Positions 35,625 to 52,386 of a stretch of DNA of 56,473 nt are shown here, one piece after another. The notes below the pieces were generated by a model. The model ran no database searches. It was not told the origin of the DNA and saw only the letters and a program-made list of their open reading frames with translations. The DNA is from Segetibacter koreensis DSM 18137. Its GTDB lineage: Bacteria; Bacteroidota; Bacteroidia; Chitinophagales; Chitinophagaceae. The position numbers and the translations under genes were made by a program. Each line of letters opens with the position of its first letter. The first letter of the stretch is position 1. The DNA lies in contig NZ_KB893333.1 in NCBI RefSeq assembly GCF_000374045.1, forward strand, positions 1 through 56,473. The letters are read 5' to 3'.

Positions 35625-37994
35625 TTACTCATTTACATCTTCCCATTGAAGTTGCTTATTTCGTATTGGGAGATTATTTTTAGAGGCAAAATTGTTCCTT
35701 ACTTTTTGAAGGTCTTTGGCCCACTTCCCTAACGGATAATGCAATTCCCTGTAAATAAGATAAGTCATGTCTATAGTACGATCAGGACGATGATCTTTCA
35801 CATCATCAACTTTGTGAAGAAACTTGCGCCCGTTTGCCTCCTCCACCCTTGGTTGCCATTCTTTGTACCAAACAGTTGTAACAGATTTTAGCATTTCATC
35901 ACGTTGCACCTTTATAACCTCTGCCTCATTCAACACTTCATCCATTAAAGATGTCGCAACACCTGCATCTCTGGGAGCAACTTTTGCAGCAAGTTTCATA
36001 AGAGAATCCATATGCTGCAGGTGAAGTAACATGGTGAGGTTTTGACGGCATAACATCGCTACGGAAAGCATTACCTCAAGGCTGTAATTCTGGTATTCTG
36101 CACTTCTTATGTTTTTATGCAATAGATCGGTAAGTTCATAATTCTCTTCTAAAAACTTTTGAACGGATTGCAGCCGTTGTCTGTTCAATTTACTCCAATC
36201 AGATTTTACAGCGAAATCATTAGAGGGAAGAGCAAGCATAGGCAGCGTTTGGTCACGCGCAGGTTTTGGTGTTTTATAAATTTCTGCATGATTACCGAAA
36301 ATTGGTGTGCGCAATGTAGAAGGCACCCACTCCCAGCTATCGTCATAAAATTGGGCCTGCCGACTTAGCAATCGATATATAGTATCCATTTTAATTGAAC
36401 TATATCCATAATAAGAAGTATAAAACCTTTCTTCTAAATCTTTTGAGGTGACGCCGCGATGATTCCATCCTGCAGCAGCACCGGTTGCATATCCTAGCCA
36501 AAACGTCTCCGGGTGCAACCCCGCGTCTGCCCAACCAGCAATAAAAACGCCCATAAAGTCAGACTTTTGTTGCGATACTGCAGAAGATATGGTTTTTAGC
36601 ATTCCTTCCACCCGACCGGTTCGGCGGTCGTTGCCAGCATCAGCAACTGTATCACCAGAAGACATGGGATAGTAGCTTGGAAAAAGCGGCTCCTCACCTT
36701 CTGTATAGGTATAAATATATTGCCTCATCTTGTTTGCCTTATATTTCGACGCCGTGCTGCTATCATACACACCGTTAATAAGGTGAGAAGGAAGGAGTGG
36801 TATGTCTTCTGGTTCTAATGGATATTCTCCCCAGAACGAAACTTTTCTTTCTTTTTTATTTAATTCATCAGCAATTCGCCGGGTAAAATGGGCCAACAGT
36901 TTGCTTCTCCCTCCCATGGCTTCCGCTTGTTTTCGGTCATCGTCGGCTTTGCCCACATAATATGCTTCATCTGTCGAAAACACAAGGTAATTTCCACCTT
37001 TATTAGCCTCTATTAGTTCCCCAAACAGCTTTAGCAATAAACTGTCCGTCTGGGGGTTCATAACACTAAACTCATAGTTAGAATTTGGGAAGGCCCTCAA
37101 ATGTGCGTACTCACGATGCTTCAATATAAATGCGACATGCGCGGGCGCATCGAGGTAAGGCACCAGCTCAACGAAATGAAACTTTGCATAATCTGTTAGC
37201 TCCTGGTATTCTTTTGCGGACAAAGCATAAGGCTCAACAATTGCAGGAGCGCTCTTAAATTGAAAATGACCTTCAAGTTTAATCGAAAAAGCATTGATTT
37301 TAAAATAAGCCGCTTGCTTTATTATTCGCTTTAGCGCCGTCATTTTCTCCAGGTGGTGCGCATCGTCCCAATAAATCATCCTAACGTTCAAATCCGGCCA
37401 GTCAACAATCTCTCCTTCGGGCAACGACAGGTTCTCTTTTTGAGGCCTTAAAAGTTGCAAAAAAGTTTGAACGCCATAGTATAAACCTTGTGGTGCATTT
37501 GCTGTAACTGTGATTTGTTTATCAGTCAAATTTAGTTTATAAGCTTGCTTTTCTAATTCAATACGATTAGTATCGGTGGATGCACCTATTTGTACGGAGC
37601 CGCTTTTAACTATCAACCTGATTGCAGGTAAAGAACTAGTATTTACAATGTTTTTTGAATAAATTTTAAAATTTATTCTTTTTTCTTTTAAGCCATCAAA
37701 CAGACTTTCAAAAGCAGCGTTAGTTTCTGTAGTTCGATTATCTTCTACACCCCAGTTATCATCCAAAGAAAAGGTTTTAGAAGAAACGGCAACTTTCTGA
37801 GGTACCGGTAGCAAACCAGCAACATATTTTGAATTGATAGCAGAACTTCCCGAGGAAGTTCTGCTTTGTTGCCCATTAGCAGTGAAAAAAGATAAAAAAC
37901 AAAAAAACATGGTAAAATTGTTTGCCAGGAGAGAGTTACGGAAGTTCATGCCCTGGTATCTTTTAGAGCTTTGCAGTTTCAAGTAGGATAGCAT
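35625..37994 (-). CDS. GH20-type beta-N-acetylhexosaminidase, divergent active-site motif
   Basis: 789 residues from the first ATG. A second ATG at 37949 (MNFRNSLLANNFTMFFCFLS) begins a much better signal peptide, ending TANGQQ, and is the likelier start. The GH20b-like N-terminal domain (about 55-190) ends in GLYYGVQTFLQLL. The catalytic barrel follows, with VPYLDAPAHVAFILKHREYA and the Asp-Glu pair at 342-343 (numbered from 37994). That pair reads FSTDEAYY instead of the usual HxGGDE, so the His-Gly context is lost. A long C-terminal helical region (about 560-780) follows. GH20 enzymes remove terminal beta-GlcNAc or beta-GalNAc, which suits this locus. It is convergent with the regulator and outside the main gene row. 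Confidence 0.85.
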   Translation of the reverse strand: MLSYLKLQSSKRYQGMNFRNSLLANNFTMFFCFLSFFTANGQQSRTSSGSSAINSKYVAGLLPVPQKVAVSSKTFSLDDNWGVEDNRTTETNAAFESLFDGLKEKRINFKIYSKNIVNTSSLPAIRLIVKSGSVQIGASTDTNRIELEKQAYKLNLTDKQITVTANAPQGLYYGVQTFLQLLRPQKENLSLPEGEIVDWPDLNVRMIYWDDAHHLEKMTALKRIIKQAAYFKINAFSIKLEGHFQFKSAPAIVEPYALSAKEYQELTDYAKFHFVELVPYLDAPAHVAFILKHREYAHLRAFPNSNYEFSVMNPQTDSLLLKLFGELIEANKGGNYLVFSTDEAYYVGKADDDRKQAEAMGGRSKLLAHFTRRIADELNKKERKVSFWGEYPLEPEDIPLLPSHLINGVYDSSTASKYKANKMRQYIYTYTEGEEPLFPSYYPMSSGDTVADAGNDRRTGRVEGMLKTISSAVSQQKSDFMGVFIAGWADAGLHPETFWLGYATGAAAGWNHRGVTSKDLEERFYTSYYGYSSIKMDTIYRLLSRQAQFYDDSWEWVPSTLRTPIFGNHAEIYKTPKPARDQTLPMLALPSNDFAVKSDWSKLNRQRLQSVQKFLEENYELTDLLHKNIRSAEYQNYSLEVMLSVAMLCRQNLTMLLHLQHMDSLMKLAAKVAPRDAGVATSLMDEVLNEAEVIKVQRDEMLKSVTTVWYKEWQPRVEEANGRKFLHKVDDVKDHRPDRTIDMTYLIYRELHYPLGKWAKDLQKVRNNFASKNNLPIRNKQLQWEDVNE

Positions 37995-38968: not shown

Positions 38969-40144
38969 TTATCTTTTCTTTGTTTCCGGATGAAACGTTT
39001 GCCACGAATGCCAGAATTCCTGGTAAGCTTGCAAACTTTGTAATTTTTCGCCCTTCAAAATACCATTTGTACAGTCACCAGCCATATTCCAAATCGATTG
39101 GGTATTATCAATTATTTGTTCATCGTTATATTTTGTAAATGACAGAACTTTTCCTTTAACCCTTCTGTCAAACACATGAAATGTAGCAGTATCACTTTCA
39201 AGAGTTAACAAAACAGGAATATTGCGTAAGGAATCTTGTATTATTCTACTCTTTACTAATTCATTCCAATCAAAAGCTTTTGATTCGCCATTATATTTTA
39301 CACCAACCACCCACGACTTCGATCTCCAGGATAAAGAGTCTCTTTTTGTAAGACTGCTTTTGCCGTTGCCTTTATCGTAGTTTGCCATGTCTTTATATTC
39401 ATCTGCAAACAGGGTGTCGGGCTGCATTATGAAGGAATTAGGATATTGTTGCAACCATGCCGCTAAAGTTGACTGTCGCGAAGGAATTTCTTGCAATGCC
39501 GTTCCTCTCAGGGGGCCGGCAACGGCGACTCCCGTTGCTTGTTGCCACCAGCTTTTTGTTGTAGCGTCTTCAAACATGGCATTGAAGTGGTCCATTCCTA
39601 CAAGCCTAAACGTTTCCACTTTACCACGAACCTCCGGGCTAAATGCCCGACCAGTTCTGCAAACCGTGCAATAAGTAACTATCACCGGAGTGTGGCCAAC
39701 AGAATCTCTTACCTGGTGATGATAACCAATAAATTGAATTGGATAAGCTTTCGCTTCGCCGTTAATTGCAACACCGATAACCAACTTATCTCCTTTGATT
39801 TTATTTGTACCTGGTTGTGCAAAAACTAGTTGATGAGGTTGATAAAACATCTTGTCAGCCTCAGCCTGAAAGTTTATAAAAAAGAAAACTATTGCGTACA
39901 AAAGCAAAGCGGATGGCAAGATAATCCTGGCTTGCTTCTTACCGTTTTTAAAAATATTTATAACCGGGAACAATATAAGCAGAAATGCAAGTATTCTCAA
40001 CCACACAATATTTCCGCTTAACCAATACGCGAAAGAAATCGTGTTCGTTTGCTGGCTTCCGGGAAATGGCATAATGAAGTAAACCCTAAGTATTTCGACA
40101 GTGAACAAAAGCAAGAACCCGATAATTAATAGCAGTCTTTGCAT
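38969..40144 (-). CDS. DUF3179 domain membrane protein
   Basis: 391 residues. Three hydrophobic segments stand at the N-terminus (about 2-27, 40-65, 75-93), followed by a large domain outside the membrane. The DUF3179 hallmarks are VIGVAINGEAKAYPIQFIGY, then the TYCTVCRTG cysteine motif near residue 160, and a second copy-like segment VVGVKYNGESKAFDWNEL near residue 285. The cysteines could bind a metal or act in redox chemistry; the family has no assigned function. It stands alone, downstream of the second SusCD locus in the same direction but 313 bases away. Confidence 0.92.
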   Translation of the reverse strand: MQRLLLIIGFLLLFTVEILRVYFIMPFPGSQQTNTISFAYWLSGNIVWLRILAFLLILFPVINIFKNGKKQARIILPSALLLYAIVFFFINFQAEADKMFYQPHQLVFAQPGTNKIKGDKLVIGVAINGEAKAYPIQFIGYHHQVRDSVGHTPVIVTYCTVCRTGRAFSPEVRGKVETFRLVGMDHFNAMFEDATTKSWWQQATGVAVAGPLRGTALQEIPSRQSTLAAWLQQYPNSFIMQPDTLFADEYKDMANYDKGNGKSSLTKRDSLSWRSKSWVVGVKYNGESKAFDWNELVKSRIIQDSLRNIPVLLTLESDTATFHVFDRRVKGKVLSFTKYNDEQIIDNTQSIWNMAGDCTNGILKGEKLQSLQAYQEFWHSWQTFHPETKKR

Positions 40145-40457
40145 AATTCAAAGTGTTTTTTCCTAGAGAGATCAGGAACAAGCAACCCTTTTTGAGAATT
40201 GAGAATTTTATTTTTAGGTTAGATATTTAGTTCGTCTATCCGTTGCGTTAGCAACACATAAAAGGACAATGTCTTATAGTGTTTTGCGCCAGAAAAACTA
40301 CTTAATCGTCATTTCAACGCACGAAGCAATTTGCTTGGCTAATCGTAACATGCTTCATAATTCAGCAGATCGCTTCGTTCCTCCTTGAAATGACAAGTAC
40401 ATTCGTTTTTATAATGCAACAGTCAAAGAATTACCCATCGCGCCACGTCGTATCGGC
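40145..40457. other. Intergenic region carrying a palindromic repeat element
   Basis: 313 bases between SusD of the second locus and the DUF3179 gene. The middle is occupied by the 87-bp palindromic element at 40308-40394; the flanks show no gene. Confidence 0.5.
40308..40394. repeat. REP/MITE-like palindromic element
   Basis: The ends GTCATTTCAA (40308-40317) and TTGAAATGAC (40385-40394) are perfect 10-bp inverted repeats. An inner pair ACGAAGC (40321-40327) and GCTTCGT (40372-40378) is also inverted. Hairpin elements starting with GTCATTTC and containing GAAGC blocks are common between genes in Bacteroidota. Being at the 3' end of the SusCD row, it may also stop or protect the transcript. 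Confidence 0.65.
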
Positions 40458-41762
40458 TTAATATTGTTCGGTAAAAGGACGCGGAAATGCCTTCCATACA
40501 TCGTCACCTTGCCTGTCAACCGGCAATTCACCTAAACGGTCGTAACGACGCATGTCAATCCACCGATGACCTTCGTAAAACAGGGAATATCGTCTTTGTT
40601 TGAGCATTTCATTAATCAAGGCAGCTTTAGTTTGAGCTCCGGTATAGTTTGCAAGCTGATGTCCTTTCCTTATAGTGTTGATTGCTTTAATGCCTTCGCT
40701 AAAGTTATTCAATTGAATGTTTGCTTCTGCATAAATCAGGATCAATTCTTCATTTCTTACAATAGGAACAGGCGCAGTGCTTGATGTATACACCCAGATA
40801 TCACGATTGCTTGCTAACCCACTTAAAGATGCGGTAGTTGTCCGAAGCGTGGCTTTGTTTATCCTGTCGTCACCTGCTTCGATATCTCTGGCGTAGGTTG
40901 GATGAGCCACCCTTACTTCGCCTGTTTGGTTTTGAGGTATAAAAACAGGGTTTAGCTGGTCGCCTGAGCCTGTGCCAAAAACATGAAAAACACCTAAATA
41001 AAAGTCTTTATTTAAGTCAAAAAAAGATTGAGATAACGCTGTTAAAGCTCCTTGCCAATCCTGGCGGTAAACGGCAACTCTTGCCGCAAGAGCCCGGTTG
41101 AATTTAGCCAGACCAGCTGCATCATTAAAACCATTAAATCCAGCTAAAGGAAAGACAACAGTCGCACCGGACAAATCATTTACAGCCGAATCAAGCAAAG
41201 ATGCAATTGCTGCTAATCCATCATTATAAGTTACGAATTTACCTAAATTGTCAGGATCAGCAACATCTACTCTTATCCCATTTGTATCGGTTAGATTAAG
41301 ATTTATTAAAAGCTGGTAAGCTTTAATAGTTCTTGCAAAACCTGCATAACCTTTTTTCTTTGCTTCAGAAATAAGAGAAGAATTGGCAGCCGCTTGTAAC
41401 AAAACATTACAATTTTTCACGACTCTGTATCTTGCTGACCAGGGGTTTGTAATATAAAAATTACTGTTGCTCAACGTGGCATTATTAGCGCCTGGTAAGT
41501 CAGTAACATACCTGGGTTCAGCATTCGAAAACCGATAACCTTCTCTTCCAATAACGCCTACGTCGTCAAGGTACAGAGCGAGCTGGTTTCTCATACCCGC
41601 TTCGGTACCGCTTACAAGATTGTTCAAGTCGCTTTTAGATGCATTTTTTAAAAAGTCCTCAACCGTAGCATTATTGAGGTTACCGTAATCCTTTTTGCAA
41701 CTGACAAAAAAACTGCTTAAACTTACCAGGATTAATGCCGCCAGGATGATATTCTTTTTCAT
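40458..41762 (-). CDS. SusD/RagB family lipoprotein (second locus)
   Basis: 434 residues from the ATG at 41762; an upstream ATG at 41777 would add five residues (MFKNI) in front of a perfect lipoprotein signal, MKKNIILAALILVSLSSFFV followed by Ser-Cys. SusD family landmarks: GFARTIKAYQLLINLNLTDTNGI, NRALAARVAVYRQDWQGALTA, VRNEELILIYAEANIQL and YSLFYEGHRWIDMRRYDRL. It should form the surface lid for the SusC upstream, 66 bases away. At 434 residues it is shorter than the usual 500-600 of glycan-binding SusDs, which may reflect a smaller ligand. Confidence 0.93.
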   Translation of the reverse strand: MKKNIILAALILVSLSSFFVSCKKDYGNLNNATVEDFLKNASKSDLNNLVSGTEAGMRNQLALYLDDVGVIGREGYRFSNAEPRYVTDLPGANNATLSNSNFYITNPWSARYRVVKNCNVLLQAAANSSLISEAKKKGYAGFARTIKAYQLLINLNLTDTNGIRVDVADPDNLGKFVTYNDGLAAIASLLDSAVNDLSGATVVFPLAGFNGFNDAAGLAKFNRALAARVAVYRQDWQGALTALSQSFFDLNKDFYLGVFHVFGTGSGDQLNPVFIPQNQTGEVRVAHPTYARDIEAGDDRINKATLRTTTASLSGLASNRDIWVYTSSTAPVPIVRNEELILIYAEANIQLNNFSEGIKAINTIRKGHQLANYTGAQTKAALINEMLKQRRYSLFYEGHRWIDMRRYDRLGELPVDRQGDDVWKAFPRPFTEQY

Positions 41763-41828
41763 AATATTTTTAAACATTTATTTTTCAATTTTCGATTAAT
41801 GTTGATTCGGGCTCAATCAAACGGCCGT

Positions 41829-44771
41829 TTATAGATCAATAGATAAATGAAAGTTTGCGCGTTTTGAGGCAGGGTAAGGGTCAACATCTACACCAGAGGA
41901 AAAGCCGGTACCAAAATTTGAAACTTCAGGATCATAAGATTTGTACTTAGTGATGGTGATGTAATTATTGAGCGATACACCAAATCTTATTCCTTTAACA
42001 TAAGAGATAGGAACCCTCGTAAAAGAATAATACAAACCTATTTCCCGAAGCCGTGCATAAGTGGATGTAGCCACGAATTGATGCGCATCAGAACCAACCA
42101 GCGAAATTCGATAGATTCCGTCGGGAATGCCTTGCTTATTAGTGACGTTATCAAAGTCTGCGCTCGTACCTCCAAAGTCGTTTTGCAGAGTTGTTAAGTT
42201 TACATTCTGACCGCCCTGTTTCCAATGAATAAGAAAACGAAGGCTGAGGTTTTTAAAGAAAGTAAGTTCATTATAAGAATTCATTTGAAACTTAGGTTCT
42301 GCATCACCCAGCACACCTACGCCTTGCCCGTTAAGCCCTACGATTTGTGTAGCCGATTTTCCTTGCTCAATTTGGTAGGAACCCAAAACATATCCAAAAG
42401 AACCTTGTGGAGCTGCTGGTATGATAAGCTTGGTAACCAATGAGCGGTTGAGCCAAAAATTAACAGAAGTATTCCATGTGATGTTTCTTGCTTGAACTGG
42501 TCTTGCATTCATACCTAATTCTACACCCCGGTTTCTCAGGTTTCCTGCATTTAGCCATTTTGTAGAAAATCCTGAAGATGAAGCCAAATTGCTCAGCATC
42601 AAAAAATCTTTAATAACCTTATTGTAATATGTAAGTTCAAAACCTAGTCGGCCATTCAAAACACTAAAGTCTAGTCCTGCTTCAAATTCGGTCTGTCTTT
42701 CAGGTTTTATAGTAGACTGGCCTTGTTGTGTATTTACAATCACTCCCGGAAATCCTGTAATATTAGACACAACTAAAGATGTAAACTTGCTGCCATAAGC
42801 GGGAACGTTGTTTGCTTGCCCATATGCTGCGCGCAATTTTATGTTTTCAAAAAAACCATCTTTAATTAATCCTGTCTTTGTCAGGTTCCATGAAATGCCG
42901 CCTTTGGGATAAACATAAAATTTTCCCGCATCACCGTTATTGCTCGACCTGTCGAAACGCACTCCTGCAGTCAGTGAAACAGCATCGGCAATATTTGCTT
43001 CCTCCTGAACAAAAATGCCTGAATTTTGAAATTTGGTCCTTAATTGTGTTGCATTCAACGCACCAGCCTGGTCAACATTTGATTGACCGGAAATGATCTG
43101 AGTAGCTACATTCAATAAATTATTATAATCGCCGGTTTCCTGGGTAAAGCCTGCTGAAGTCGTCAGCGATAATTTATCAGAGGCATTCCAAGTATTTACC
43201 AAAGAGAGAATGTAATTCGTACTTAAGTTTTTAGTAAAGCCCTGGATAGAAGTGCCTTTATTAACTGCCTGAAATTGGAGAATGCCTGGAAATAAAACGT
43301 TCGTATTTAGGTTGTAGAAATCAAAGCCACCTCTTGCAATAAATCTCGTAGTACTGGAATTACTTTTTTGTAAAATGGCATCCAGGTTTGCTCCTGTGAT
43401 AAATCTGTTTACTGTCTCATTGTTCTTCATGAGTGCAATGGTTTGTAAAGGATTGGCTGCAGCAAAAGGATTGTTGGGATAATTCCCTGCTTTATCAGGA
43501 TGCAATTGAGCAAAGCTGGGTGTAGAAGCCAAAGCAATGCCTGTTGTTATTCCGGCATTATCATTACCAAACAAGCCCCTGTCTGCAGAAGAATTAATAT
43601 AGCTTGTACTAACTCCAAACTTTATATTGTCCGTAATGCGGTGGTCAATATTAAGTCGCATACTTGTGTTTTGGTAACCGGTATTTTTTACAATTCCACC
43701 TTCATCTTTCTGAGCTGCAGAGAAATAGAAGCTTGTTTTTTCATTTCCGCCGCTCATGCTTACTACAGTATTTCTTAAAAAGCCTGTATTTCCGTATATC
43801 TCTTTTTCATAGTCATAAATTTGGCCCTTTGATTGAGCATCTAAAAATTGTTGTCTTAAGGCCACACTCGTAGCACTATCACGAGATAAACTTGCCGCCC
43901 TGTCTGCTGTAAAGGCTCTAACACCTAATAATTTTCTTGCAGTTACAAACCCGATATCCTGCGAAACAGAAACACTTGTTTTTCCCTGCCTTCCCCTTTT
44001 TGTTGTAATAATAATAACTCCGGCGGCAGCTCTCGAACCATACACCGCCGCGGCAGATGCGCCTTTTAGTATTTCAATGTTTTCAATGTCTTCAGGACGC
44101 AGGTCTGCTATCCGGCTCGAAGGATTGTCCTGGTTAGATGTAGTTCCCCCGCTTCCTTGTGCTGAGGTAACGGCGTTCATTCCTGCGGAAGTAGAGGTGT
44201 TATCAACAAAAACTCCATCTACTACATATAATGGCTGAGTGTTTCCATAGACAGATGTAACACCACGTAGCTTCACCGAGATGCCTCCGCCAGGAGCTCC
44301 CGAATTTGCATTGATATATGCCCCGGGAATTTTTCCTGAAAGTGCAGCATCGAACGTTTGTGCCGGCGAAGTTCCGCTTAATTGTTTTGAAGAAATAGTG
44401 GCTACAGCATTTGCCAGGTTTCTCCTTTTTACAGTTGTCGCCAGTCCTGTTACAACCACTTCATCGAGTTTTGCTACGTCTTCTTCTAACTTTATTTTCA
44501 GGTCTGGCCTTGCCCTTATGGTCTGCGTTTTATACCCTGTTGCACTAACAATTATAGAAGCATCGGGAGGAATTGCAAGACTAAAATTTCCTTTAGCATC
44601 AGTTGCCACGGAAACAGTTGAATTTTTCACAGCAACGGTTGCTGAAGGAATGGGTGCACCACTTGCATCAATGACCTGTCCCGTTACCGCAATATTTTGC
44701 GCCGGAACTATAACAGGAATAAAAAGCATACACAGTATTCCTGTTATAATTAATAACCTTTTTTTCATCAT
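41829..44771 (-). CDS. SusC/RagA family TonB-linked outer-membrane receptor (second locus)
   Basis: 980 residues. Signal peptide (about 1-24, ending VPAQ), carboxypeptidase-regulatory-like domain (about 28-95, VTGQVIDASGAPIPSATVAVKN), a TonB-box-like region EVVVTGLATTVKRRN, plug with YVVDGVFVDN and DIENIEILKGASAAAVYG, then the barrel ending KRANFHLSIDL. It imports a ligand with SusD. Directly upstream (70 bases) are AhpD-like genes and not glycosidases. It is fewer residues than the PUL 1 SusC mainly because of a shorter barrel. Confidence 0.94.
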   Translation of the reverse strand: MMKKRLLIITGILCMLFIPVIVPAQNIAVTGQVIDASGAPIPSATVAVKNSTVSVATDAKGNFSLAIPPDASIIVSATGYKTQTIRARPDLKIKLEEDVAKLDEVVVTGLATTVKRRNLANAVATISSKQLSGTSPAQTFDAALSGKIPGAYINANSGAPGGGISVKLRGVTSVYGNTQPLYVVDGVFVDNTSTSAGMNAVTSAQGSGGTTSNQDNPSSRIADLRPEDIENIEILKGASAAAVYGSRAAAGVIIITTKRGRQGKTSVSVSQDIGFVTARKLLGVRAFTADRAASLSRDSATSVALRQQFLDAQSKGQIYDYEKEIYGNTGFLRNTVVSMSGGNEKTSFYFSAAQKDEGGIVKNTGYQNTSMRLNIDHRITDNIKFGVSTSYINSSADRGLFGNDNAGITTGIALASTPSFAQLHPDKAGNYPNNPFAAANPLQTIALMKNNETVNRFITGANLDAILQKSNSSTTRFIARGGFDFYNLNTNVLFPGILQFQAVNKGTSIQGFTKNLSTNYILSLVNTWNASDKLSLTTSAGFTQETGDYNNLLNVATQIISGQSNVDQAGALNATQLRTKFQNSGIFVQEEANIADAVSLTAGVRFDRSSNNGDAGKFYVYPKGGISWNLTKTGLIKDGFFENIKLRAAYGQANNVPAYGSKFTSLVVSNITGFPGVIVNTQQGQSTIKPERQTEFEAGLDFSVLNGRLGFELTYYNKVIKDFLMLSNLASSSGFSTKWLNAGNLRNRGVELGMNARPVQARNITWNTSVNFWLNRSLVTKLIIPAAPQGSFGYVLGSYQIEQGKSATQIVGLNGQGVGVLGDAEPKFQMNSYNELTFFKNLSLRFLIHWKQGGQNVNLTTLQNDFGGTSADFDNVTNKQGIPDGIYRISLVGSDAHQFVATSTYARLREIGLYYSFTRVPISYVKGIRFGVSLNNYITITKYKSYDPEVSNFGTGFSSGVDVDPYPASKRANFHLSIDL

Positions 44772-44841
44772 GTTTTGGTTTAAATGGTCCGTTTAGAATA
44801 ACAATCTTTACAAGCAGTATTTTATAATTGATTACAGAAAA

Positions 44842-45405
44842 TTATACAACAGTTTGTTTAGCGGAAAAAATGTGAGCACCATATCCATTTGTGGCTACTT
44901 GTTTCGCCCTCGGCGGATAGGTTGAAAGGTCAGTCGGTGTGGTAGCAGCGAGTCCGTCGACGTACCTGTTGAACATACAAAAAACCGCAGCAATCAGAAC
45001 CGTGTCATGAACGTCTCTATCACTTGCACCAAGAGTTTTTGCTCTTTCAACTTGTTCAGGAGTTACATACTTTCCTCCTTTTTGTACACTGCCTGCAATA
45101 GACAGCAATGCTTTTAATTTATCAGACACCGGAGCTGAATTATAGTCTTTCTTCACCTGTTCAACAAGGTCTTTGTTGCCGTCTAAATATTCGCAAGCAA
45201 TTGCACCATGAGACTGGTGGCAATAAAAGCAATCGTTGAGGTAGGATACATGAGCAGCAATTAATTCTCGCTCTGCCATACTTAACCCTTCATCGTCACG
45301 CAGTAAAACATTTGCCAACTCGCCCATTGGTGCTGCTGTTTCCGGCCGGAAAGCCATTAAAGCCCTAATGCCGGGAAGATTTCTATCTACATCAATATGG
45401 GGCAT
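44842..45405 (-). CDS. AhpD-like/carboxymuconolactone decarboxylase family protein, paralogue 1
   Basis: 187 residues, no signal peptide, so cytoplasmic. The AhpD active-site layout is kept: Glu47, Cys59, Cys62 and His66 in ERELIA...NDCFYCHQSH have the same spacing as Glu118, Cys130, Cys133 and His137 of mycobacterial AhpD; the position of its His132 is Tyr here. The second half has GKYVTPEQVERAKTLGASDRD and HDTVLIAAVFCMFNRYVDGL. AhpD-type proteins reduce lipoyl or peroxiredoxin partners or peroxides; other members of the superfamily are decarboxylases. Its N-terminal LPGIRALMAFRPET is shared with the three paralogues below. It lies 70 bases upstream of SusC. Confidence 0.9.
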   Translation of the reverse strand: MPHIDVDRNLPGIRALMAFRPETAAPMGELANVLLRDDEGLSMAERELIAAHVSYLNDCFYCHQSHGAIACEYLDGNKDLVEQVKKDYNSAPVSDKLKALLSIAGSVQKGGKYVTPEQVERAKTLGASDRDVHDTVLIAAVFCMFNRYVDGLAATTPTDLSTYPPRAKQVATNGYGAHIFSAKQTVV

Positions 45406-45485
45406 AATTTTAATTTTTGTATTGAAAATGTTAGAAGTGAAAATGAGAAACGTGAAAGCGGATGTTTTTACCTTTTTACTTTATT

Positions 45486-46037
45486 TTATTTATAAACATT
45501 CAAATCCGCGTAGCCTTCTTCGGCTCTGATTTTTGCGCGGTCTACATATAATTGACGGTCTTGGGGAGCCCTGGTATTTAACCCGTCAACGTAACGGTTG
45601 AACATGCAAAAGGCAGCAGCGATCAGAACAGTATCATGTATTTCTCTGTCTGTCGCACCAAAAGTTCTCGCATGCTCAACTTGCTCAGGCGTTACATACT
45701 TTCCACCTTTTTGCACACTGCCAGCTATAGCTAGCAATGCTTTCAGTTTATCTGAAATAGGTGCTGATTGATAATCTTTTTTAATGGCGTCAATAAACGG
45801 TATATCACATTGAAAGTAATGTTGTGCAAGTGCACCGTGTACATTTTGACAATAAAAACAGTCGTTTTGAGATGACACATATGCACCAATCATTTCCCTT
45901 TCGCCGCGTGACAACGTGTTGTTATCATCATGTAATAGAACTTCTGCCAATTCATTTAAAGGTTTAGCCGTTTCAGGCCTAAAAGCCATTGGACCTCTAA
46001 TGCCTGGTAAGTCTTTTTGTAAATCGATGAAAGCCAT
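45486..46037 (-). CDS. AhpD-like/carboxymuconolactone decarboxylase family protein, paralogue 2
   Basis: 183 residues. The closest relative in the window is the downstream paralogue 1 (shared LPGIR, MAFRPET, SAPxSDKLKALLxIAGSVQKGGKYVTPEQVE and NRYVDGL). Active-site residues by spacing: Glu48, Cys60, Cys63 and His67 (NDCFYCQNVH). No signal peptide. It is 80 bases from paralogue 1 and 49 bases from paralogue 3, all in one direction. The high identity in the core suggests a fairly recent tandem duplication with retained catalytic residues. Confidence 0.9.
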   Translation of the reverse strand: MAFIDLQKDLPGIRGPMAFRPETAKPLNELAEVLLHDDNNTLSRGEREMIGAYVSSQNDCFYCQNVHGALAQHYFQCDIPFIDAIKKDYQSAPISDKLKALLAIAGSVQKGGKYVTPEQVEHARTFGATDREIHDTVLIAAAFCMFNRYVDGLNTRAPQDRQLYVDRAKIRAEEGYADLNVYK

Positions 46038-46086
46038 ATTTGTTATTTGAAAAATTGTAATTGAATTTTAATTTGGCCAGTTACTG

Positions 46087-46632
46087 CTAACCTGTCGTTG
46101 GCAACTGGTATCCCTTTTCCGTCATTCTTTTGCCCATTGCGTCGTACTCGGCAGGGTCTGTTGGGGTTAAGCTTGCAAGACCATCTACATAGCGGTTAAA
46201 CATGCAAAAAGTCGCAGCAATCAAAACCGTATCATGTATTTCCCTGTCGTTAGCGCCAAGTTTTCTTGCAGCTTCTATGTCTTCGGGCAATACTTCTTTC
46301 CCTAATATTTGTACTTTACCTGCTATATGCAGCAATGTTTTTAGCTTTTCGCTTACGTTGGCGTGTTGCATATCTTTTAGGACAGCATCGACTGTATCTT
46401 TATTGTCACTAAAAAGACATCGCGCGGCTGCAGCGTGACTGCTCATACAAAACGTACAGTCATTTAGATAAGAAACATAGGTAGCTATCAGTTCTCTTTC
46501 AGCTTCGCTTAACGGCGATTCGCCTCTTAATAAAACCTGAGCTAAATCATACAATGGTTTGCCCGTTTCTGGCCTGAACATTACTAATGCCCTAATGCCG
46601 GGAACTCCTTCTGGAACATTAATGTATGCCAT
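46087..46632 (-). CDS. AhpD-like/carboxymuconolactone decarboxylase family protein, paralogue 3
   Basis: 181 residues with the same plan as its neighbours but more divergent: VPGIRALVMFRPET, active site Glu47, Cys59, Cys62, His66 in NDCTFCMSSH, and GANDREIHDTVLIAATFCMF. The residues round the CxxC (CTFC instead of CFYC) resemble paralogue 4, so the four form two pairs. A 196-base gap separates it from the MFS permease gene upstream, the largest break in this row. A CCCC-TTTA-GGGG palindrome (46811-46822) lies in that gap, close to the permease stop. Confidence 0.9.
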   Translation of the reverse strand: MAYINVPEGVPGIRALVMFRPETGKPLYDLAQVLLRGESPLSEAERELIATYVSYLNDCTFCMSSHAAAARCLFSDNKDTVDAVLKDMQHANVSEKLKTLLHIAGKVQILGKEVLPEDIEAARKLGANDREIHDTVLIAATFCMFNRYVDGLASLTPTDPAEYDAMGKRMTEKGYQLPTTG

Positions 46633-46810
46633 AAATAAGCCTTATAATTTTTAAAAACATTTTGTAAACTATAGAAAATAACATCTATTAAGATCTTGCA
46701 TAGATCAACATCTTGTATAAATAGCCGCGTCGAAAAAATTCAATTCCGCCCCCTATTATGTTGCGTTTTAAACCGCAAAAAGCGCTATGTTCATCTTTTA
46801 AGCCTTTAAA

Positions 46811-46822
46811 CCCCTTTAGGGG
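46811..46822. repeat. CCCC-TTTA-GGGG palindrome behind the MFS gene
   Basis: CCCC and GGGG with a 4-nt loop, inside a longer imperfect inversion (AGCC at 46801-46804 and GGCT at 46821-46824), just after the permease stop. There is no T-tract, so termination is uncertain; it may attenuate or stabilise the message between the two halves of the row. Confidence 0.4.
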
Positions 46823-46828
46823 CTGGGC

Positions 46829-48100
46829 TTAATCCTGATAATTGATAGAGTTTTGTTTTCCAAATAGTGTGGTGATAAAACCGATAACAAATACAAATGA
46901 AAAAATAAATATAGCATTGCCATAACCGCCAAGAAAACTAACCAAAGCGCCAACAAAGAAAACTACGGTGGCTGTAAACAGCCTCCCTGCACTAAAACAA
47001 AAACCGGTTGCAGAAGCACGAACAATTCGTGGAAATAACAGAGGAATATAAACTGAAAGAACGCCTTGACTGATACCAAAGAAAAGTGCCAGCACCGAAA
47101 GTTCTATAAAAGCTGTTGTGTTAAATGCTGTATTAATTTTAAAAAGCAGTAATGAGAAAATGAAACTGACTAAAAAACACATGAGCATCGTTCTTCTCAA
47201 TCCTATTGCGTTTGCGATCCATCCTGAAATAAAACCTCCCGTTAAACCGCCGGCTCCAAGTATCATCATACTCAGTCCCCGATTGTGTTGCTCATTGGAT
47301 GGCGAGATACTTTGTACCCATGTCGGCAGCCAGGAGAAAATCGCCCATAACCCGATTAACATAGTTCCAAAGATTACAGAACCGAGAAGCAGATCTTTTC
47401 TGTAAGATATATTAAAAAGTTTTTGGGAAAGAACGATTTGGCCATCTTTTTCCGGTGAACCATCTTTCCTGCTTTCAGGTTCTTCTAATGTAAACATCGC
47501 CGTTACTGCAACCAACATAGGGATCAATCCAATCAAAAAAGCCTGCCTCCACGTTGATACAAACAATTCTATAAAGCCTGCAGAAAAAATGCCGACAGGA
47601 ATTGAAATGGATAAGATACCTAATGCTACTGCCCGCTTCTTGGGAGACCATGCTTCTGCAACAAGAATATTTGTAGTGACCAACACGCCACCAATGCCAA
47701 AGCCTGATAAAAAACGGCAGACAGCTACCAAAAACCATGATGGTGAAAAACCTGTCAACACGGTGAATAAAGCATAAAAAGCTGTAGCTAAAATAACGGT
47801 TTTAGACCGCCCAATCTTATCGCATATTAATCCCCATGCGATGCCACCAAACATCCATCCAAAAATAAAGACTGAGCTTATGTAAGCGCTGACATTATTA
47901 AATTTTTCTACCGATACATCTCCTAATAAATCCTTAACTGCAACCGGCAAATAAACAGACATTAGCGTAGATACCGTACCGCCAAACATAGTACTGGTGA
48001 AACAAATCGCAAACAGTAATAGATGCTTTGTTGTTTTTACTTTCGTAACTACACCTTCCTCTTTAAGGGGAAGTGCAGCCGATAAAATTGTGTGAGACAT
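46829..48100 (-). CDS. MFS transporter
   Basis: 423 residues with twelve hydrophobic segments. Motif A between the second and third is GLICDKIGRSKT, and VCRFLSGFGIGGVLVTTNIL with EAWSPKKRAVALG follows, in the style of sugar and aromatic-acid proton symporters. The central loop (about 205-225) is charged. It lies between AhpD-like paralogues 3 and 4 (9 bases after the latter), so import or export of the same compound these proteins act on is likely. The exact substrate is not readable. Confidence 0.92.
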   Translation of the reverse strand: MSHTILSAALPLKEEGVVTKVKTTKHLLLFAICFTSTMFGGTVSTLMSVYLPVAVKDLLGDVSVEKFNNVSAYISSVFIFGWMFGGIAWGLICDKIGRSKTVILATAFYALFTVLTGFSPSWFLVAVCRFLSGFGIGGVLVTTNILVAEAWSPKKRAVALGILSISIPVGIFSAGFIELFVSTWRQAFLIGLIPMLVAVTAMFTLEEPESRKDGSPEKDGQIVLSQKLFNISYRKDLLLGSVIFGTMLIGLWAIFSWLPTWVQSISPSNEQHNRGLSMMILGAGGLTGGFISGWIANAIGLRRTMLMCFLVSFIFSLLLFKINTAFNTTAFIELSVLALFFGISQGVLSVYIPLLFPRIVRASATGFCFSAGRLFTATVVFFVGALVSFLGGYGNAIFIFSFVFVIGFITTLFGKQNSINYQD

Positions 48101-48109
48101 AAAAACAAT

Positions 48110-48679
48110 TTAGATTTTCTCTTTTTTCAAATGATCGTATCCCTGCGGCAGACGGGTGTAACCGTGGCGGACTAATCGGTTTGCCAGCACATTAAAGTAA
48201 CCAGAGTCATCAGGCAGTGCTGTTGCCAGTCCATCTACATAACGATTATAGAGACAAAACAATGCAGCAATTAATACCGTATCGTGAATTTCTACATCAG
48301 TCGCTCCTTCATCTTTCGCTTTTTGTATAGCTTCTGGCGTTACACTTTTACCACTTTCTCTTACCATTGAGGCAATGGTTAGTAGCGCTTTCATTTTACC
48401 ACTTACAGGTGCGGTGTTAATGTCTTCTTTTACCTTTTTCGCTGTTTCAGTATTGCCGATTAAAAGGTCGGCAGCAGCGGTATGTGCTGTTGTACAAAAG
48501 GTGCAATTGTTACCACTTGATACAACGGTGGCTATCAGCTCGCGTTCTCCTTCTGTAAATGTTGATTGGCCTCGTAATAAAATTTGGGTTAATTCCCGAA
48601 TAGGCTGCGCGGAATCTTTTCGATACTCAAGTAAGCCGGTTATTCCGGGCAAATGTTCTTCCAGAGGTATGTAAGGCAT
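48110..48679 (-). CDS. AhpD-like/carboxymuconolactone decarboxylase family protein, paralogue 4
   Basis: 189 residues, the most divergent of the four copies. It keeps LPGITGL, the active-site set Glu47, Cys59, Cys62, His66 in NNCTFCTTAH, and IHDTVLIAALFCLYNRYVDGL. The FRPET of the others is YRKDS here. It is followed 9 bases later by the MFS permease and preceded 47 bases earlier by the haloperoxidase-type gene, so all three are probably on one message. No signal peptide is present. Confidence 0.9.
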   Translation of the reverse strand: MPYIPLEEHLPGITGLLEYRKDSAQPIRELTQILLRGQSTFTEGERELIATVVSSGNNCTFCTTAHTAAADLLIGNTETAKKVKEDINTAPVSGKMKALLTIASMVRESGKSVTPEAIQKAKDEGATDVEIHDTVLIAALFCLYNRYVDGLATALPDDSGYFNVLANRLVRHGYTRLPQGYDHLKKEKI

Positions 48680-48726
48680 GATTTGTAGTTTTTGTTATAA
48701 AAAAAACCGATAAAGGAAAAAGGCGT

Positions 48727-50280
48727 TTATTCTGCTCCGTCCGCCATGGCTTTCGCTACCGCGTAAGCGCCAATTTTTTTTCCGACAGTCAAACCAGCCT
48801 GGCAATCGCTTCTGTGATGTATTCCTCCATACATTCTGGAGTTAGATGCTTCCTGTGCCATTGCGTTGTAGTCAGAGGCCCTTTCAGGAACAATATGCGA
48901 TAGCACTTCTGCTGCAGCACCACTAAAAGTTGAATGACCGGATATGTATGAAGGAAAATTAGGAATGCCCGTTAATGTTTTAATAGCCGGGTTCATTTGA
49001 GAAGGCCTGGGATTGAAATAATAATATTTGGTATTCCAACAAACAATTGCCGCATCCATTAGTGACATATTAAGGAGGGCGAGATTGCGCGCCCATCTAA
49101 TTTCGCTATAATCTTTTTTAAGGAAGTCGTCAGCCGCAATTGCATTCCAATGACCGGCAGGAGTAGATGTACCAGCGCCGTCAGCCCAGAAATGAACGAT
49201 TCTTATTTGTTCGCGCGAAGGATTTTTGACGTAATTATATATCTCTTCAGTTTCTTTTTTCATTTCTTCGCTACCCGTAGATGGAGGAGGGCCGGGACGC
49301 AAAGAAGCACATGTAGCCGAGTCAAAAAGAAATGCTTTTACTTTACCGTACAAAGGAAGCATGGGAGGTCGTTTGGGTGATTCAAAAGTGTACCACGGCG
49401 TTTCATTTTTTGCTATACAGTCTGTTTCAAACTTCGACCAATCGACTGCGGTGCCTCCTGCTTTGCCTGCACCATCGGTTTTGGCACGTGCAATAAAAAC
49501 CTGTGCAACAGACCTTCCTAAAATTTCTCCGGCCGCAATATCACTACGCACATTAGCGCCTGCCATTAGTCTGGCCTGTTCTGCTTCTGCGGCCTTTTGC
49601 TCTATAAAAGCTATTTCAGTCGGAAATAATAATTTCATCATTTCTGCAGTAACGCCGGCCACCACCGCATCTTCTGAAGGGTAAGATGGCAAATTGCTTT
49701 GAGGTACCAAAAGGTTTGCTTTCAATGTCGAATCTACTTTATATGGTGCCGCTCTATTATAGATTTTTTTATAATGCCATGCAGCAACTAATGCATCGTA
49801 TTGCGCAGCGCTTATATAAGCATAAGCTCTTGCCGCATAAGGTGGATTTGAAAAAGGAAATTGCGGATAGTTAAACGGATTCGCAGCATTCGGAATGGGA
49901 TAAGTACCATCTTCTGCCTGGTAAGGTGGCAGATTGTGTTTTGCCACTAACCCTCTCATAATTTCATTCCAGCGAAGCACTGTACCCGCGCTCCAATATT
50001 TAACTACTGCTTTTTGACCTTCGGTAAGGTTCTGTTGTAATCCTTTTATTTCGTTTAACTCACCTATATACCCCGAAGTATTTGTTGCGGCAGGTGTTGC
50101 TACTGCAAAAGTATCAGGGCGTGATAGCAGAACGGTTTTCCAGCTTCCTGCTTCCATGTCAATATTAGTTTGATTAAGCGCAGGAAGATTTTCAGTATGT
50201 TCAATAATACTTTTAGAACAGGCAAATTGTATGATAATTAAAAGACCTGTAATCAGAGATAGTATAGATATTTTTTTCAT
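48727..50280 (-). CDS. PAP2 superfamily / vanadium-dependent haloperoxidase-type lipoprotein
   Basis: 517 residues from the ATG at 50280; a TTG at 50286 would add two. A lipoprotein signal ends in IIQFACSKS, so it faces the periplasm. All three blocks of the vanadate-binding signature are complete (numbered from the TTG at 50286): Lys420-x6-Arg427-Pro428, SGH at 449-451, and Ser483-Arg484-x5-His490. This constellation is shared by vanadium haloperoxidases, which make hypohalous acid from peroxide and halide, and PAP2 acid phosphatases. The long helical N-terminal half and total length of more than 500 residues favour the haloperoxidase-like branch. It is the second gene of the row, 19 bases behind the outer-membrane protein. 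Catalytic type, halide or phosphate, cannot be decided from sequence. Confidence 0.88.
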   Translation of the reverse strand: MKKISILSLITGLLIIIQFACSKSIIEHTENLPALNQTNIDMEAGSWKTVLLSRPDTFAVATPAATNTSGYIGELNEIKGLQQNLTEGQKAVVKYWSAGTVLRWNEIMRGLVAKHNLPPYQAEDGTYPIPNAANPFNYPQFPFSNPPYAARAYAYISAAQYDALVAAWHYKKIYNRAAPYKVDSTLKANLLVPQSNLPSYPSEDAVVAGVTAEMMKLLFPTEIAFIEQKAAEAEQARLMAGANVRSDIAAGEILGRSVAQVFIARAKTDGAGKAGGTAVDWSKFETDCIAKNETPWYTFESPKRPPMLPLYGKVKAFLFDSATCASLRPGPPPSTGSEEMKKETEEIYNYVKNPSREQIRIVHFWADGAGTSTPAGHWNAIAADDFLKKDYSEIRWARNLALLNMSLMDAAIVCWNTKYYYFNPRPSQMNPAIKTLTGIPNFPSYISGHSTFSGAAAEVLSHIVPERASDYNAMAQEASNSRMYGGIHHRSDCQAGLTVGKKIGAYAVAKAMADGAE

Positions 50281-50305
50281 TTTCAATCAATTTTTCAAAA
50301 TAAGG

Positions 50306-51247
50306 TTACTTGGAAGATTTGTTGGGATGTAGGCTGAAAATATAATACAGGCCGGCGCCATAAGAAGTGGCACGTCCTACATTACGGCCAGATAGTACAT
50401 AATCAGCTTCGCCAGTCAGCTCAATATGGGTGAAACGCGGTAGCGTATACTTCGCGTGAACGCCAACAGAAGTGCTATTCATCCTGTTGCTTGGAAAAGG
50501 CATATCATTTTTTCTGATATCAAAACCTCCGAGCGTCGTCATGTTATTTAACAGCGCTTCTGCAACAAGATATTTTTTTCTGATTCCTACGCTAAAATTA
50601 TACAAAGCCATATCAGGCATTTTTACCTCCGTTGTATTATGAAGCTCGGTAGTGTAGTAAGCGTCTCTGTCAAGTTTTACGTTGCTTCTGCGCACATAGG
50701 CTCCTGAAATTGTTGTAAAGAAAATTCCCTTTTGGTAATCAGCTAAAAGTCTTCCTGAAACATTTGTTGAACCTAATCCTATCGAGAGAGGAAGGAAGTC
50801 AATTACATAATTACTAACGGGTGTACTAACTCCTGCGACAGCAAAAAGAGAAAATTTTTCTTTAGCTGATCGTATAGTAATTGGTTTCCATTTTAAGAAA
50901 AGGCTTGCATCCTGTAAACCTTTCATCCCGTGCAAAGTACCTTTTGAAGCACTTGTCCAAACGTAAGGAAGCCCGGCTAAAACATTAAGTTTATCGGAAA
51001 TGCCATAGTTAGTCATATACATCACTGACTGGGTACTTACGCTCCCTATGTTGTCGTTATTTCTTTTATAAGAGCCTTCCCAGTAGTCTGTCCATTTTGA
51101 ATTCATATAAGAAAAGCCGTTACACCATTGTGCTTTATTAAGCATGATGGCATCATGCTCAGTTTGAGCAAAAAGTTTCGAATAAGAAAAAGCCAAGGAA
51201 ATAATCAGTAAACACAAAAGCACGCGCCTTTGTAAATTATTCTTCAT
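50306..51247 (-). CDS. Outer-membrane beta-barrel protein (MetA-pathway phenol degradation-like transporter)
   Basis: 313 residues with a signal peptide (about 1-28, ending SKLFAQ). The remaining sequence alternates as amphipathic strands with the features of the Phenol_MetA_deg-like barrel family: MTNYGISDKLNVLAGLPYVWT near residue 80, LFAVAGVSTPVSNY near 140, and a final strand YGAGLYYIFSL. Members are proposed to pass hydrophobic or aromatic compounds through the outer membrane. It seems to be the first gene of the AhpD/haloperoxidase row, 19 bases ahead of the haloperoxidase-type gene. Confidence 0.8.
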   Translation of the reverse strand: MKNNLQRRVLLCLLIISLAFSYSKLFAQTEHDAIMLNKAQWCNGFSYMNSKWTDYWEGSYKRNNDNIGSVSTQSVMYMTNYGISDKLNVLAGLPYVWTSASKGTLHGMKGLQDASLFLKWKPITIRSAKEKFSLFAVAGVSTPVSNYVIDFLPLSIGLGSTNVSGRLLADYQKGIFFTTISGAYVRRSNVKLDRDAYYTTELHNTTEVKMPDMALYNFSVGIRKKYLVAEALLNNMTTLGGFDIRKNDMPFPSNRMNSTSVGVHAKYTLPRFTHIELTGEADYVLSGRNVGRATSYGAGLYYIFSLHPNKSSK

Positions 51248-51362
51248 AATAATTAAGTTAGTTGTTGGGTAAATATTAAAGCTAATAGTCCAGTAGCATA
51301 CTAAATGCTAATGTAAAAGCACACAGGCAGTTGTAGGGTCTGCATTGCTTGTGTCAATAAAT

Positions 51363-51935
51363 TTAAAGAAGTGCTTTAAGCTTTTCGGGAGGTTGTTCAG
51401 GAGTGGCGTGAGGAAATGTAGCTAATTCCCACGGTTTGCTGAAAGACGAGTAACATGATTGAACGCTAAATATGCGGGAAGTATAGTTAAGCTCACTTTT
51501 ATCAAATTCACTAAAAATATTTTTTAAAGAAACAGATTTAGAATCTGAAGATTTTTTTGAATTTGAATTAGCAGTTGCGTCACTTATATTTTTGTAAGAA
51601 TCATTTGCTTCTGATTGCAGACGCATTTTATTGTAATCAGGCAGGCACAATAGTACAAGCTGACCTTCTAGAATTCTTCTTTTCACGTACTTATAAATCT
51701 TGCCATTGATTTTTATTTCCCCATCGACGCGTTCAAAGGAAGAGTTATTAGGTAAATACGGAAGTGATAAAGGAACTTTTATAGTAAGCAAGTCAGCTTC
51801 ATTGTACAAATCTTCATTAAGCGAAGCTTCCAATTGTTTGTCTGATTGCTGTTGCTCATAGCAAATCATTACTCTGTATCCCACGAGATTGATCAGGAAT
51901 AAAGAAATTAAAAATATGGAAGCAAGTTTTTTCAA
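51363..51935 (-). CDS. Small conserved Bacteroidota protein with N-terminal anchor (TTG start)
   Basis: 190 residues. The start is TTG at 51935: the preceding in-frame codons are TGA ATT, and no ATG exists before a perfect MKKLASIFLISLFLINLVGY signal or anchor. The body (KVPLSLPYLPNNSSFERVDG, then IKINGKIYKYVKRRI and a Cys near residue 97) is of a type often found beside TonB-dependent receptors in this phylum, with no known role. A Ser/Asn/Lys-rich linker (about 115-140) follows. It lies 115 bases upstream of the outer-membrane barrel gene and may or may not be part of that row. Confidence 0.7.
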   Translation of the reverse strand: MKKLASIFLISLFLINLVGYRVMICYEQQQSDKQLEASLNEDLYNEADLLTIKVPLSLPYLPNNSSFERVDGEIKINGKIYKYVKRRILEGQLVLLCLPDYNKMRLQSEANDSYKNISDATANSNSKKSSDSKSVSLKNIFSEFDKSELNYTSRIFSVQSCYSSFSKPWELATFPHATPEQPPEKLKALL

Positions 51936-51990: not shown

Positions 51991-52386
51991 TTATTGTGTG
52001 CTCAGGCTTCCTTTATTTTTCTTATGCCAGTAATAATAAGATATAATGCCGGGAATTATCCATAATAACATAAACAACATCATAGGGTCGAACTGACCTG
52101 ATGATGCTACGCCTGAATAAATAGCACCGGCCAGATCGAAGAACAAACCAGCATAAGCCCATTCCTTTACGCTGCGGTTCAAGCCGGGAACCAGGATTGC
52201 AATCGAGCCGATCAATTTTGCAATGCTGATATATCGTATAAAGTAGACTGGATAGCCCAGTGCATCATGTATCAGTTGAATAGATTTTTGAGAAGGCTTT
52301 AGTCCCCCGACAGCGGAGAAGATCATTGAGGCAGCAAAAACAATAGTAGATATCCAATAGAGCAGTTTAGCAGTTTTGGTGGTCAT
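51991..52386 (-). CDS. DoxX-like membrane protein
   Basis: 131 residues with four predicted membrane helices, the usual DoxX size. The sequence IFSAVGGLKP, then LGYPVYFIRYISIAKLIGSI and LFFDLAGAIYSG fits the DoxX-like family of small four-helix inner-membrane proteins. Roles in oxidative stress or quinone-linked complexes have been proposed for some members. It stands alone, 55 bases behind the TTG-start gene. Confidence 0.88.
   Translation of the reverse strand: MTTKTAKLLYWISTIVFAASMIFSAVGGLKPSQKSIQLIHDALGYPVYFIRYISIAKLIGSIAILVPGLNRSVKEWAYAGLFFDLAGAIYSGVASSGQFDPMMLFMLLWIIPGIISYYYWHKKNKGSLSTQ

Follow-up and report, generated by a model that had tools for sequence, protein, structure and literature searches.

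What could four AhpD-like proteins do that are encoded in one row with a haloperoxidase-type protein, a permease of the major facilitator superfamily (MFS) and transport proteins of the outer membrane? Such a row is present in Segetibacter koreensis DSM 18137 (Bacteroidota, Chitinophagaceae) on contig NZ_KB893333.1 of assembly GCF_000374045.1, whose positions 1 to 56,473 constitute the stretch analysed here, designated the window. A preliminary description of this DNA had listed nine open reading frames (ORFs) and had regarded them as one candidate new system. An ORF check confirmed all nine at the coordinates given in Table 1, on the minus strand and in the transcription order barrel protein (Bar), VHPOa, AhpD-like 4, MFS permease, AhpD-like 3, 2 and 1, SusC and SusD, and scans with Pfam and NCBIfam named SusD, SusC/RagA, four CMD/AhpD-like proteins, MFS_1 and, for VHPOa, the PAP2 superfamily. 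The row belongs to a real conserved gene set, of which no description was found in the open-licence literature. The idea of a single system held in part: a conserved gene set is present, but the row appears to consist of two joined sets, and the barrel and the haloperoxidase normally lie in a separate locus. With somewhat less than even confidence, we favour the reading that two gene sets conserved in Bacteroidota meet in this row and work on the same or on linked chemistry, presumably oxidation with peroxide or halide outside the cell, uptake, and thiol reduction inside.

Conservation of the AhpD/MFS gene set

Relatives of the row were sought in a family sample of 195 Chitinophagaceae genomes and in loci picked by AhpD (L001-L080, i.e. 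80 of at least 568 confirmed AhpD relatives), by the MFS permease (L081-L103) or by VHPOa (L104-L120). The loci with the MFS gene amount to 66, the window included, after removal of five duplicates (L081, L082, L088, L090, L100), and all shares given for these 66 loci carry the selection. The MFS permease (E ≤ 1e-60) was found in 25 and AhpD relatives (E ≤ 1e-30) in 36 of the 195 family genomes, and in each of the 25 the MFS gene adjoins AhpD matches on the same contig, as compared by eye. One of these 25 corresponds to the Parafilimonas terrae record (L082 duplicates L007), so that we take the family to be Chitinophagaceae. The next gene after the MFS gene encodes an AhpD-like protein in 64 of the 66 loci, and a further AhpD gene lies at most 4.5 kb upstream of it in 48 of the 53 loci with enough DNA. 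The taxa represented include Chitinophagaceae, Mucilaginibacter, Ohtaekwangia, Runella, Larkinella, Spirosoma, Aquirufa and Emticicia. A related arrangement is found in L137, from another class of the same phylum, where genes for a VHPOb-like protein (404 bits with the VHPOb profile, under the Pfam cut-offs; VHPOb is introduced below), an ASPIC/UnbV protein, a TonB receptor, four AhpD-like proteins and an MFS permease lie on one strand. Pairs or threes of AhpD genes were also seen beside a TonB-like receptor, an MFS gene or a gene for a MetE-like enzyme in Acidobacteriota groups and Nevskia (L024, L027, L050, L068, L069).

The row is longer than the nine ORFs by these comparisons, since two further genes, for a protein designated x363 and for a DUF3179 protein, recur in the same rows of relatives: x363, which starts the row 115 bp before the barrel gene, in 50 of the 66 loci and the DUF3179 gene, which ends it 313 bp beyond SusD, in 28. 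As the comparison shows, set A, as we call it, comprises x363, AhpD-like 4, an outer-membrane receptor, the MFS permease, AhpD-like 3, AhpD-like 2 and the DUF3179 protein; it is operon-like, of transport type, and its genes keep their positions. That the row is a chance assembly of several unrelated transcripts is very improbable. Such an assembly would fit the usual location of barrel and haloperoxidase elsewhere, the 313-bp gap and the 196 bp that separate the MFS gene from that of AhpD-like 3, all other intergenic gaps between the nine ORFs measuring 9-80 bp; it is contradicted by the order conserved in 66 unique loci, by the co-occurrence at genome level described below and by the similar row in L137. 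The linkage, whose recurrence in other genomes had been proposed as a check, is not unique to this strain and is far more regular than that of chance neighbours would be.

The outer-membrane receptor of set A varies. Of the 66 loci, 28 have the SusC subfamily of the window, 24 another TonB-dependent receptor (TBDTa), none both and 14 neither; these counts apply at set thresholds, and L054 has TBDTa plus a SusC under the threshold. We read this as SusC/SusD and their own copy, AhpD-like 1, standing in for TBDTa in loci of the window type. A SusC/SusD pair that replaces a TonB receptor next to no recognised glycan-degrading enzyme bears on the question of Sus-type pairs in non-glycan uptake.

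The AhpD-like proteins

The four AhpD-like proteins of the window score 92.3, 87.3, 89.7 and 81.8 bits with TIGR01926, all at or over its cut-off of 81.8 bits, and AhpD-like 2, 3 and 4 share 62%, 56% and 44% identity with AhpD-like 1. The roles of the glutamate, CxxC and histidine residues in AhpD-like proteins are treated in PMC7950407. The preliminary description rightly stated that all four copies keep these residues. They form the motif E-x11-C-x-x-C-x3-H, which is kept in 206 of 217 AhpD rows taken from the loci with the MFS gene; duplicate loci contribute 14 of these rows. In the other 11 rows, one of them a duplicate, TxxC replaces CxxC, and tblastn revealed two more such cases in L015 and L060. 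The TxxC copies are located upstream of or next after the MFS gene (L001, L007, L015, L029, L043, L053, L058, L059, L060, L083, L094), and they suggest for some of the paralogs a chemistry that does not depend on two cysteines. Among solved structures, AhpD-like 1 has its nearest relatives in other peroxidase-related proteins.

In a FastTree phylogeny of 203 different AhpD sequences, each copy of the window falls into its own supported set. The set of AhpD-like 4 holds 58 rows, 55 of them from the position upstream of the MFS gene (local support 99), that of AhpD-like 3 holds 47 rows, 43 from the position after it (local support 99), and that of AhpD-like 1 holds 27 rows, among them every one of the 20 copies whose label places it directly before SusC (local support 99), while the set of AhpD-like 2 is the least pure one, with 33 of 51 rows labelled position 2 (local support 98). 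Position labels change 35 times along the tree, whereas 200 shuffles averaged 113 changes and never gave so few. Some labels are wrong where an ORF-overlap filter lost AhpD-like 3; gene counts per locus refer to stop-to-stop segments. Because the sets follow gene position, the four copies seem to represent old, separate lineages, each with a fixed place, rather than recent tandem duplicates. Gaps of about 350-610 bp after the MFS gene in 12 loci had raised the idea of a selenocysteine-containing or broken AhpD-like 3, which was rejected: tblastn found an intact AhpD in nine of the 12 gaps, eight of AhpD-like 3 type and one of AhpD-like 2 type (L026), and in the remaining three (L006, its duplicate L081, and L011) it found the start of the next annotated AhpD copy only; for the most part the gaps stemmed from the ORF-overlap filter. 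Two unusual AhpD genes were noted in passing, namely one open frame that runs from an AhpD-like domain into a TonB receptor and off the contig end (L139:8585-10825; a fusion or a lost stop), and a pair located between genes for an amino-acid permease and a PAP2 protein on a Bryobacterales contig (L056:2559-5912), which represents a separate AhpD-PAP2 neighbourhood.

An alternative, which we consider fairly unlikely, is that the row is an operon for uptake and catabolism of a small compound, aromatic or other. The AhpD-like proteins would then act as decarboxylases or isomerases, and the haloperoxidase module would do no more than modify this compound or be a mere neighbour. The best model of the MFS permease is that of aromatic-acid/H+ symporters (TIGR00895), albeit with 142 bits against a cut-off of 418.55, a distance that leaves the aromatic, halogenated or peroxidised substrate of the preliminary description unsupported; besides this model, the MetE-like enzyme that joins the row in 12 of the 66 loci and the AhpD genes of Acidobacteriota (L068, L069) with MFS and TonB-like outer-membrane receptor genes would agree with catabolism. 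However, the redox motif is kept in nearly all AhpD rows, Pfam and NCBIfam scans of the genes of the row gave no match to ring-cleavage or coenzyme A (CoA) enzyme families, and a catabolic operon leaves unexplained why VHPOa is present in nearly all MFS-bearing family genomes.

The haloperoxidase locus

The solved protein that scores best with VHPOa is 4cit, a vanadium iodoperoxidase of Zobellia; the best stretch covers residues 309-512. VHPOa contains K-x6-RP from residue 420, SGH at 449-451 and SR..H at 483-490, which are the motifs of the vanadate pocket. In an alignment of VHPOa with 28 relatives, K-x6-RP is present in all 29 sequences and both SGH and SR..H in 28, the exception being the second copy in L059. 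The ORF opens at a TTG codon, with an in-frame ATG at 50280. The protein is probably exported; the label of a lipoprotein given to it in the preliminary description is no more than plausible, as a strict lipobox pattern had no match.

Orthologs of VHPOa were found in 68 of the 195 family genomes, i.e. in 75 minus seven with weaker or short matches, one of which (G131) is a contig-end fragment that may be an ortholog. In six of the 68 genomes the gene lies beside an AhpD gene, a number from which draft contigs may hide some. The usual VHPOa locus reads x363, VHPOb, Bar2, Bar and VHPOa, often followed by a TonB receptor (TBDTb). Set B, as we call it, unites x363, barrels and a TonB receptor with two haloperoxidase-type proteins, the first of them of Zobellia type, and is normally a separate locus. 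In the genome of the window it is split, and half of it sits inside set A: x363, VHPOb and Bar2 are located on contig C2 (L124), Bar and VHPOa in the window. The match between 4cit and the VHPOb of this genome extends over residues 2-437 of 439 (E 1.5e-122), VHPOa being more distant from 4cit, and because of this nearly full-length match set B can be predicted with good confidence to be of haloperoxidase type. On contig C2 (L124:379-9773), Bar2, VHPOb and x363 are convergent to ebo genes, of which EboC and EboE score over their cut-offs. Contig C21 of the same genome (L123:8252-9577) encodes another PAP2-type protein of 441 amino acids, which has 234 bits with the VHPOa profile, shows two PAP2-like motif sets by eye and matches phosphatase models only, below cut-off.

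Acid phosphatases share the vanadate-pocket motifs. The PAP2 proteins might be phosphatases, with a sugar or lipid conjugate being dephosphorylated before it is taken up, which we regard as improbable. For VHPOa, acid phosphatases score next after 4cit (7f17, E 1.7e-11), and its NCBIfam matches are phosphatase models far below cut-off. At least 31 of the 59 family genomes that have both VHPOa and trehalase encode the two no more than 20 kb apart, a lower bound since the pairs were picked by eye with both matches on one contig; in L117 a GH65 gene is located upstream. Phosphatase activity is hard to reconcile with the nearly full-length match of the partner VHPOb to 4cit, and the genome of the window has no trehalase match at E ≤ 1e-20. 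Loci of this haloperoxidase type often lie beside a trehalase gene (L106, L109, L111-L113, L116-L118, L120), and in L117 GH65, LacI and MFS genes adjoin the locus.

Association of the two gene sets

In agreement with the proposal that a haloperoxidase-type enzyme is tied to the AhpD genes, all but two of the 25 family genomes that encode the set A MFS permease contain VHPOa (23 observed, 8.7 expected; p 3e-10, odds ratio 32). Counted by genus, 19 of 20 genera with the permease also have VHPOa, one of them (g24) through different genomes. As 45 family genomes contain VHPOa without the permease, the dependence is one-way. Trehalase, which was used for comparison and occurs in 100 of the 195 genomes and in 21 of the 25 with the permease, gave an odds ratio of 6; being linked to VHPOa itself, it does not serve as a neutral control. 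The link between permease and VHPOa persists in both trehalase groups: among trehalase-positive genomes, VHPOa is present in 20 of 21 with the permease versus 59 of 100 overall, and among trehalase-negative genomes in three of four versus nine of 95. Of the 296 genomes in a phylum sample, 21 contain AhpD and 24 contain VHPOa (each at E ≤ 1e-40); the two occur together in 10, where 1.7 would be expected.

The genes of the MFS permease and VHPOa are adjacent in four of the 23 family genomes and also in Runella, Larkinella and Spirosoma. In a tree of 14 linked VHPOa copies and 15 chosen from the unlinked ones, both kinds are interspersed, with eight label changes, at least five of which are forced by starred branches, against 10 expected after shuffling. 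Joining or parting of the two sets has thus taken place more than once.

The association also bears on the possibility that the row serves oxidant defence, in that the haloperoxidase would make hypohalous or hypothiocyanous acid, the AhpD-like proteins would protect the cytoplasm as RclX does, and the transporters would be secondary. We judge defence to be unlikely but deserving of serious attention, and it stays alive because the AhpD-like RclX of Pseudomonas aeruginosa is needed to survive hypochlorous (HOCl) and hypothiocyanous acid (HOSCN), according to PMC7950407. Likewise, PMC9296495 reports a CMD-family gene of Zobellia that is induced on brown algae, and the near restriction of the set A permease to haloperoxidase-carrying genomes would be expected. 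Defence accounts less well for the import-type receptor (SusC or TBDTa) in 52 of the 66 set A loci and for several AhpD lineages in fixed places, which are more than a detoxification enzyme needs, and no regulator was recognised by general family scans among the genes of 38969-51935. What chiefly favours an uptake pathway over plain defence is that importers form the core of set A in most of its loci.

The barrel, x363 and the DUF3179 protein

No Pfam or NCBIfam family, PF13557 included, matches the sequence of Bar at E ≤ 0.05. A structural model built from six sequences (pLDDT 74.4, pTM 0.72) had as best Foldseek match in the PDB the COG4313 channel 4rl8 (E 6e-10, TM(target) 0.77, 14% identity), so that Bar is predicted by its model to have a COG4313-like fold; structures of CymD and FadL are also among the next matches. 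PF13557, a profile that we take to be linked to COG4313, is matched just over its cut-off by Bar2, the second type of barrel in set B (L032:411-1481). The likeness of the barrel to transporters of phenolic compounds, as suggested earlier, is thereby upheld at the level of the model: the studied COG4313 members named in PMC4493636 are TcpY, which was proposed for trichlorophenol, and SphA. With SusC/SusD, the barrel and the MFS permease, transport proteins for both membranes are present, as had been noted.

Protein x363 has no match in Pfam or NCBIfam. Its C-terminus contains an invariant PP in an alignment of 35 sequences, and its model (pLDDT 78.9) consists of a long N-terminal helix, a probable membrane anchor, and a small β-domain, with no PDB match at E ≤ 0.001. 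For the DUF3179 protein, a comparison with PDB sequences gave nothing meaningful (best E 0.66). The selenoprotein families listed in PMC9312934 include DUF3179 proteins with UxxC/T and AhpD/CMD proteins with CxxU, and because both are listed there, both are plausible thiol-redox proteins.

A possible pathway

Taken together, these properties would allow the following sequence of events. With H2O2 and perhaps a halide, an exported haloperoxidase-type enzyme would act, outside the cell or in the periplasm, on a small compound that is probably hydrophobic or phenolic, which would thereby be oxidised or halogenated. The product would enter through the barrel and SusC/SusD and subsequently through the MFS permease, and the cytoplasmic AhpD paralogs would reduce or otherwise process it via their CxxC thiols, while the DUF3179 protein might perform related thiol chemistry in the periplasm. 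In its most specific form, this would be an undescribed old Bacteroidota pathway in which a compound is oxidised or halogenated outside by the cell's own haloperoxidase, re-imported via a dedicated but swappable receptor and the MFS permease, and reduced stepwise with thiols by specialised AhpD paralogs; this version is speculative, and we hold it to be doubtful.

Several findings weigh against the joint function of the two sets. In most genomes VHPOa lies apart from set A, 11 of the 21 AhpD-bearing genomes of the phylum sample have no VHPOa, and 14 of the 66 loci, some of them on short contigs, have neither receptor. The p-values for co-occurrence ignore relatedness, which enters through the genus count only, and trehalase, used as the control, is enriched as well. 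Since 11 of the 217 AhpD rows have TxxC, two-cysteine chemistry cannot hold for every copy. Furthermore, VHPOa also matches acid phosphatases, as described above, and the next PDB match of Bar is the polypeptide transporter FapF (5o67, E 1e-8).

AhpD-like proteins are common, as are bacterial homologs of haloperoxidases, and many of both have no known substrate. Fixed AhpD lineages beside an importer, which in the family sample occur almost only together with a haloperoxidase, provide a concrete handle on both protein groups. The row may make or meet a reactive small molecule, import it and reduce it.

Features of the row and its surroundings

The genes of the row are compiled in Table 1.

Table 1 Genes of the conserved row in the window, in the order of transcription
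Gene	Position	Strand	Properties
x363	51363..51935	-	190 aa, TTG start; N-terminal helix and β-domain (model); first gene of the row; no family
Bar	50306..51247	-	Outer-membrane-type β-barrel, COG4313-like fold (model)
VHPOa	48727..50286	-	PAP2 superfamily, vanadium-haloperoxidase-type, probably exported; PF01569 E 5.9e-18; 4cit E 4e-18
AhpD-like 4	48110..48679	-	TIGR01926 exactly at cut-off; groups with the copy upstream of the MFS gene elsewhere
MFS permease	46829..48100	-	PF07690 E 4e-35; TIGR00895 best, below cut-off
AhpD-like 3	46087..46632	-	TIGR01926; tree set of the position after the MFS gene
AhpD-like 2	45486..46037	-	TIGR01926; tree set mostly of position 2
AhpD-like 1	44842..45405	-	TIGR01926; copy travelling with SusC/SusD
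SusC/RagA-type TonB-dependent receptor	41829..44771	-	TIGR04056 508.5 bits, over cut-off
SusD-type protein	40458..41777	-	PF07980 E 2e-16
DUF3179 protein	38969..40144	-	PF11376 E 1e-56; C-x-x-C (YCTVC); hydrophobic N-terminus

Downstream of the row and apart from it, an AgaR-type regulator gene, whose product scores over its cut-off, is convergent with a gene for an N-acetylglucosaminidase (GlcNAcase)-like protein (34832-37994); the latter gene (35625-37994), whose match is below cut-off, lies beyond the conserved row. A DoxX_2 membrane protein is encoded 55 bp upstream of x363 (51991-52386), and a DoxX-type gene also comes after VHPOa in L120. A shared promoter motif before x363 was sought in 79 upstream stretches versus 430 controls and yielded mainly AT-rich words that were enriched two- to fivefold, and a generic scan gave 46 promoters versus 37.1 (SD 5.8) and 10 terminators versus 12.6 (SD 3.8) in shuffled sequences; neither result was used.

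Comparison with known systems

The row resembles a polysaccharide utilization locus (PUL) in having a SusC/SusD pair, an inner-membrane permease and predicted cytoplasmic enzymes. It differs in that family scans of the nine genes, x363 and the DUF3179 gene recognised no glycoside hydrolase, lyase or sulfatase, in keeping with the earlier statement that it is not an ordinary PUL, and in that a plain TonB receptor replaces SusC/SusD in related loci. With RclX/RclR of P. aeruginosa it shares an AhpD-like CxxC protein, RclX being tied to hypohalous and hypothiocyanous stress in PMC7950407. However, RclX is encoded by a single gene beside its own regulator gene, whereas several AhpD lineages, transporters and no recognised regulator are found here. 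The COG4313 channels (Pput2725, TcpY, SphA) resemble the model of Bar in barrel fold and size, but Bar has low identity to its nearest structure and no match to a family profile. The Zobellia haloperoxidase 4cit has a near full-length homolog in VHPOb and is matched in its C-terminal part by VHPOa, whose N-terminal half, in contrast, has no confident match to 4cit and which is encoded inside a row of AhpD, MFS and SusC/SusD genes.

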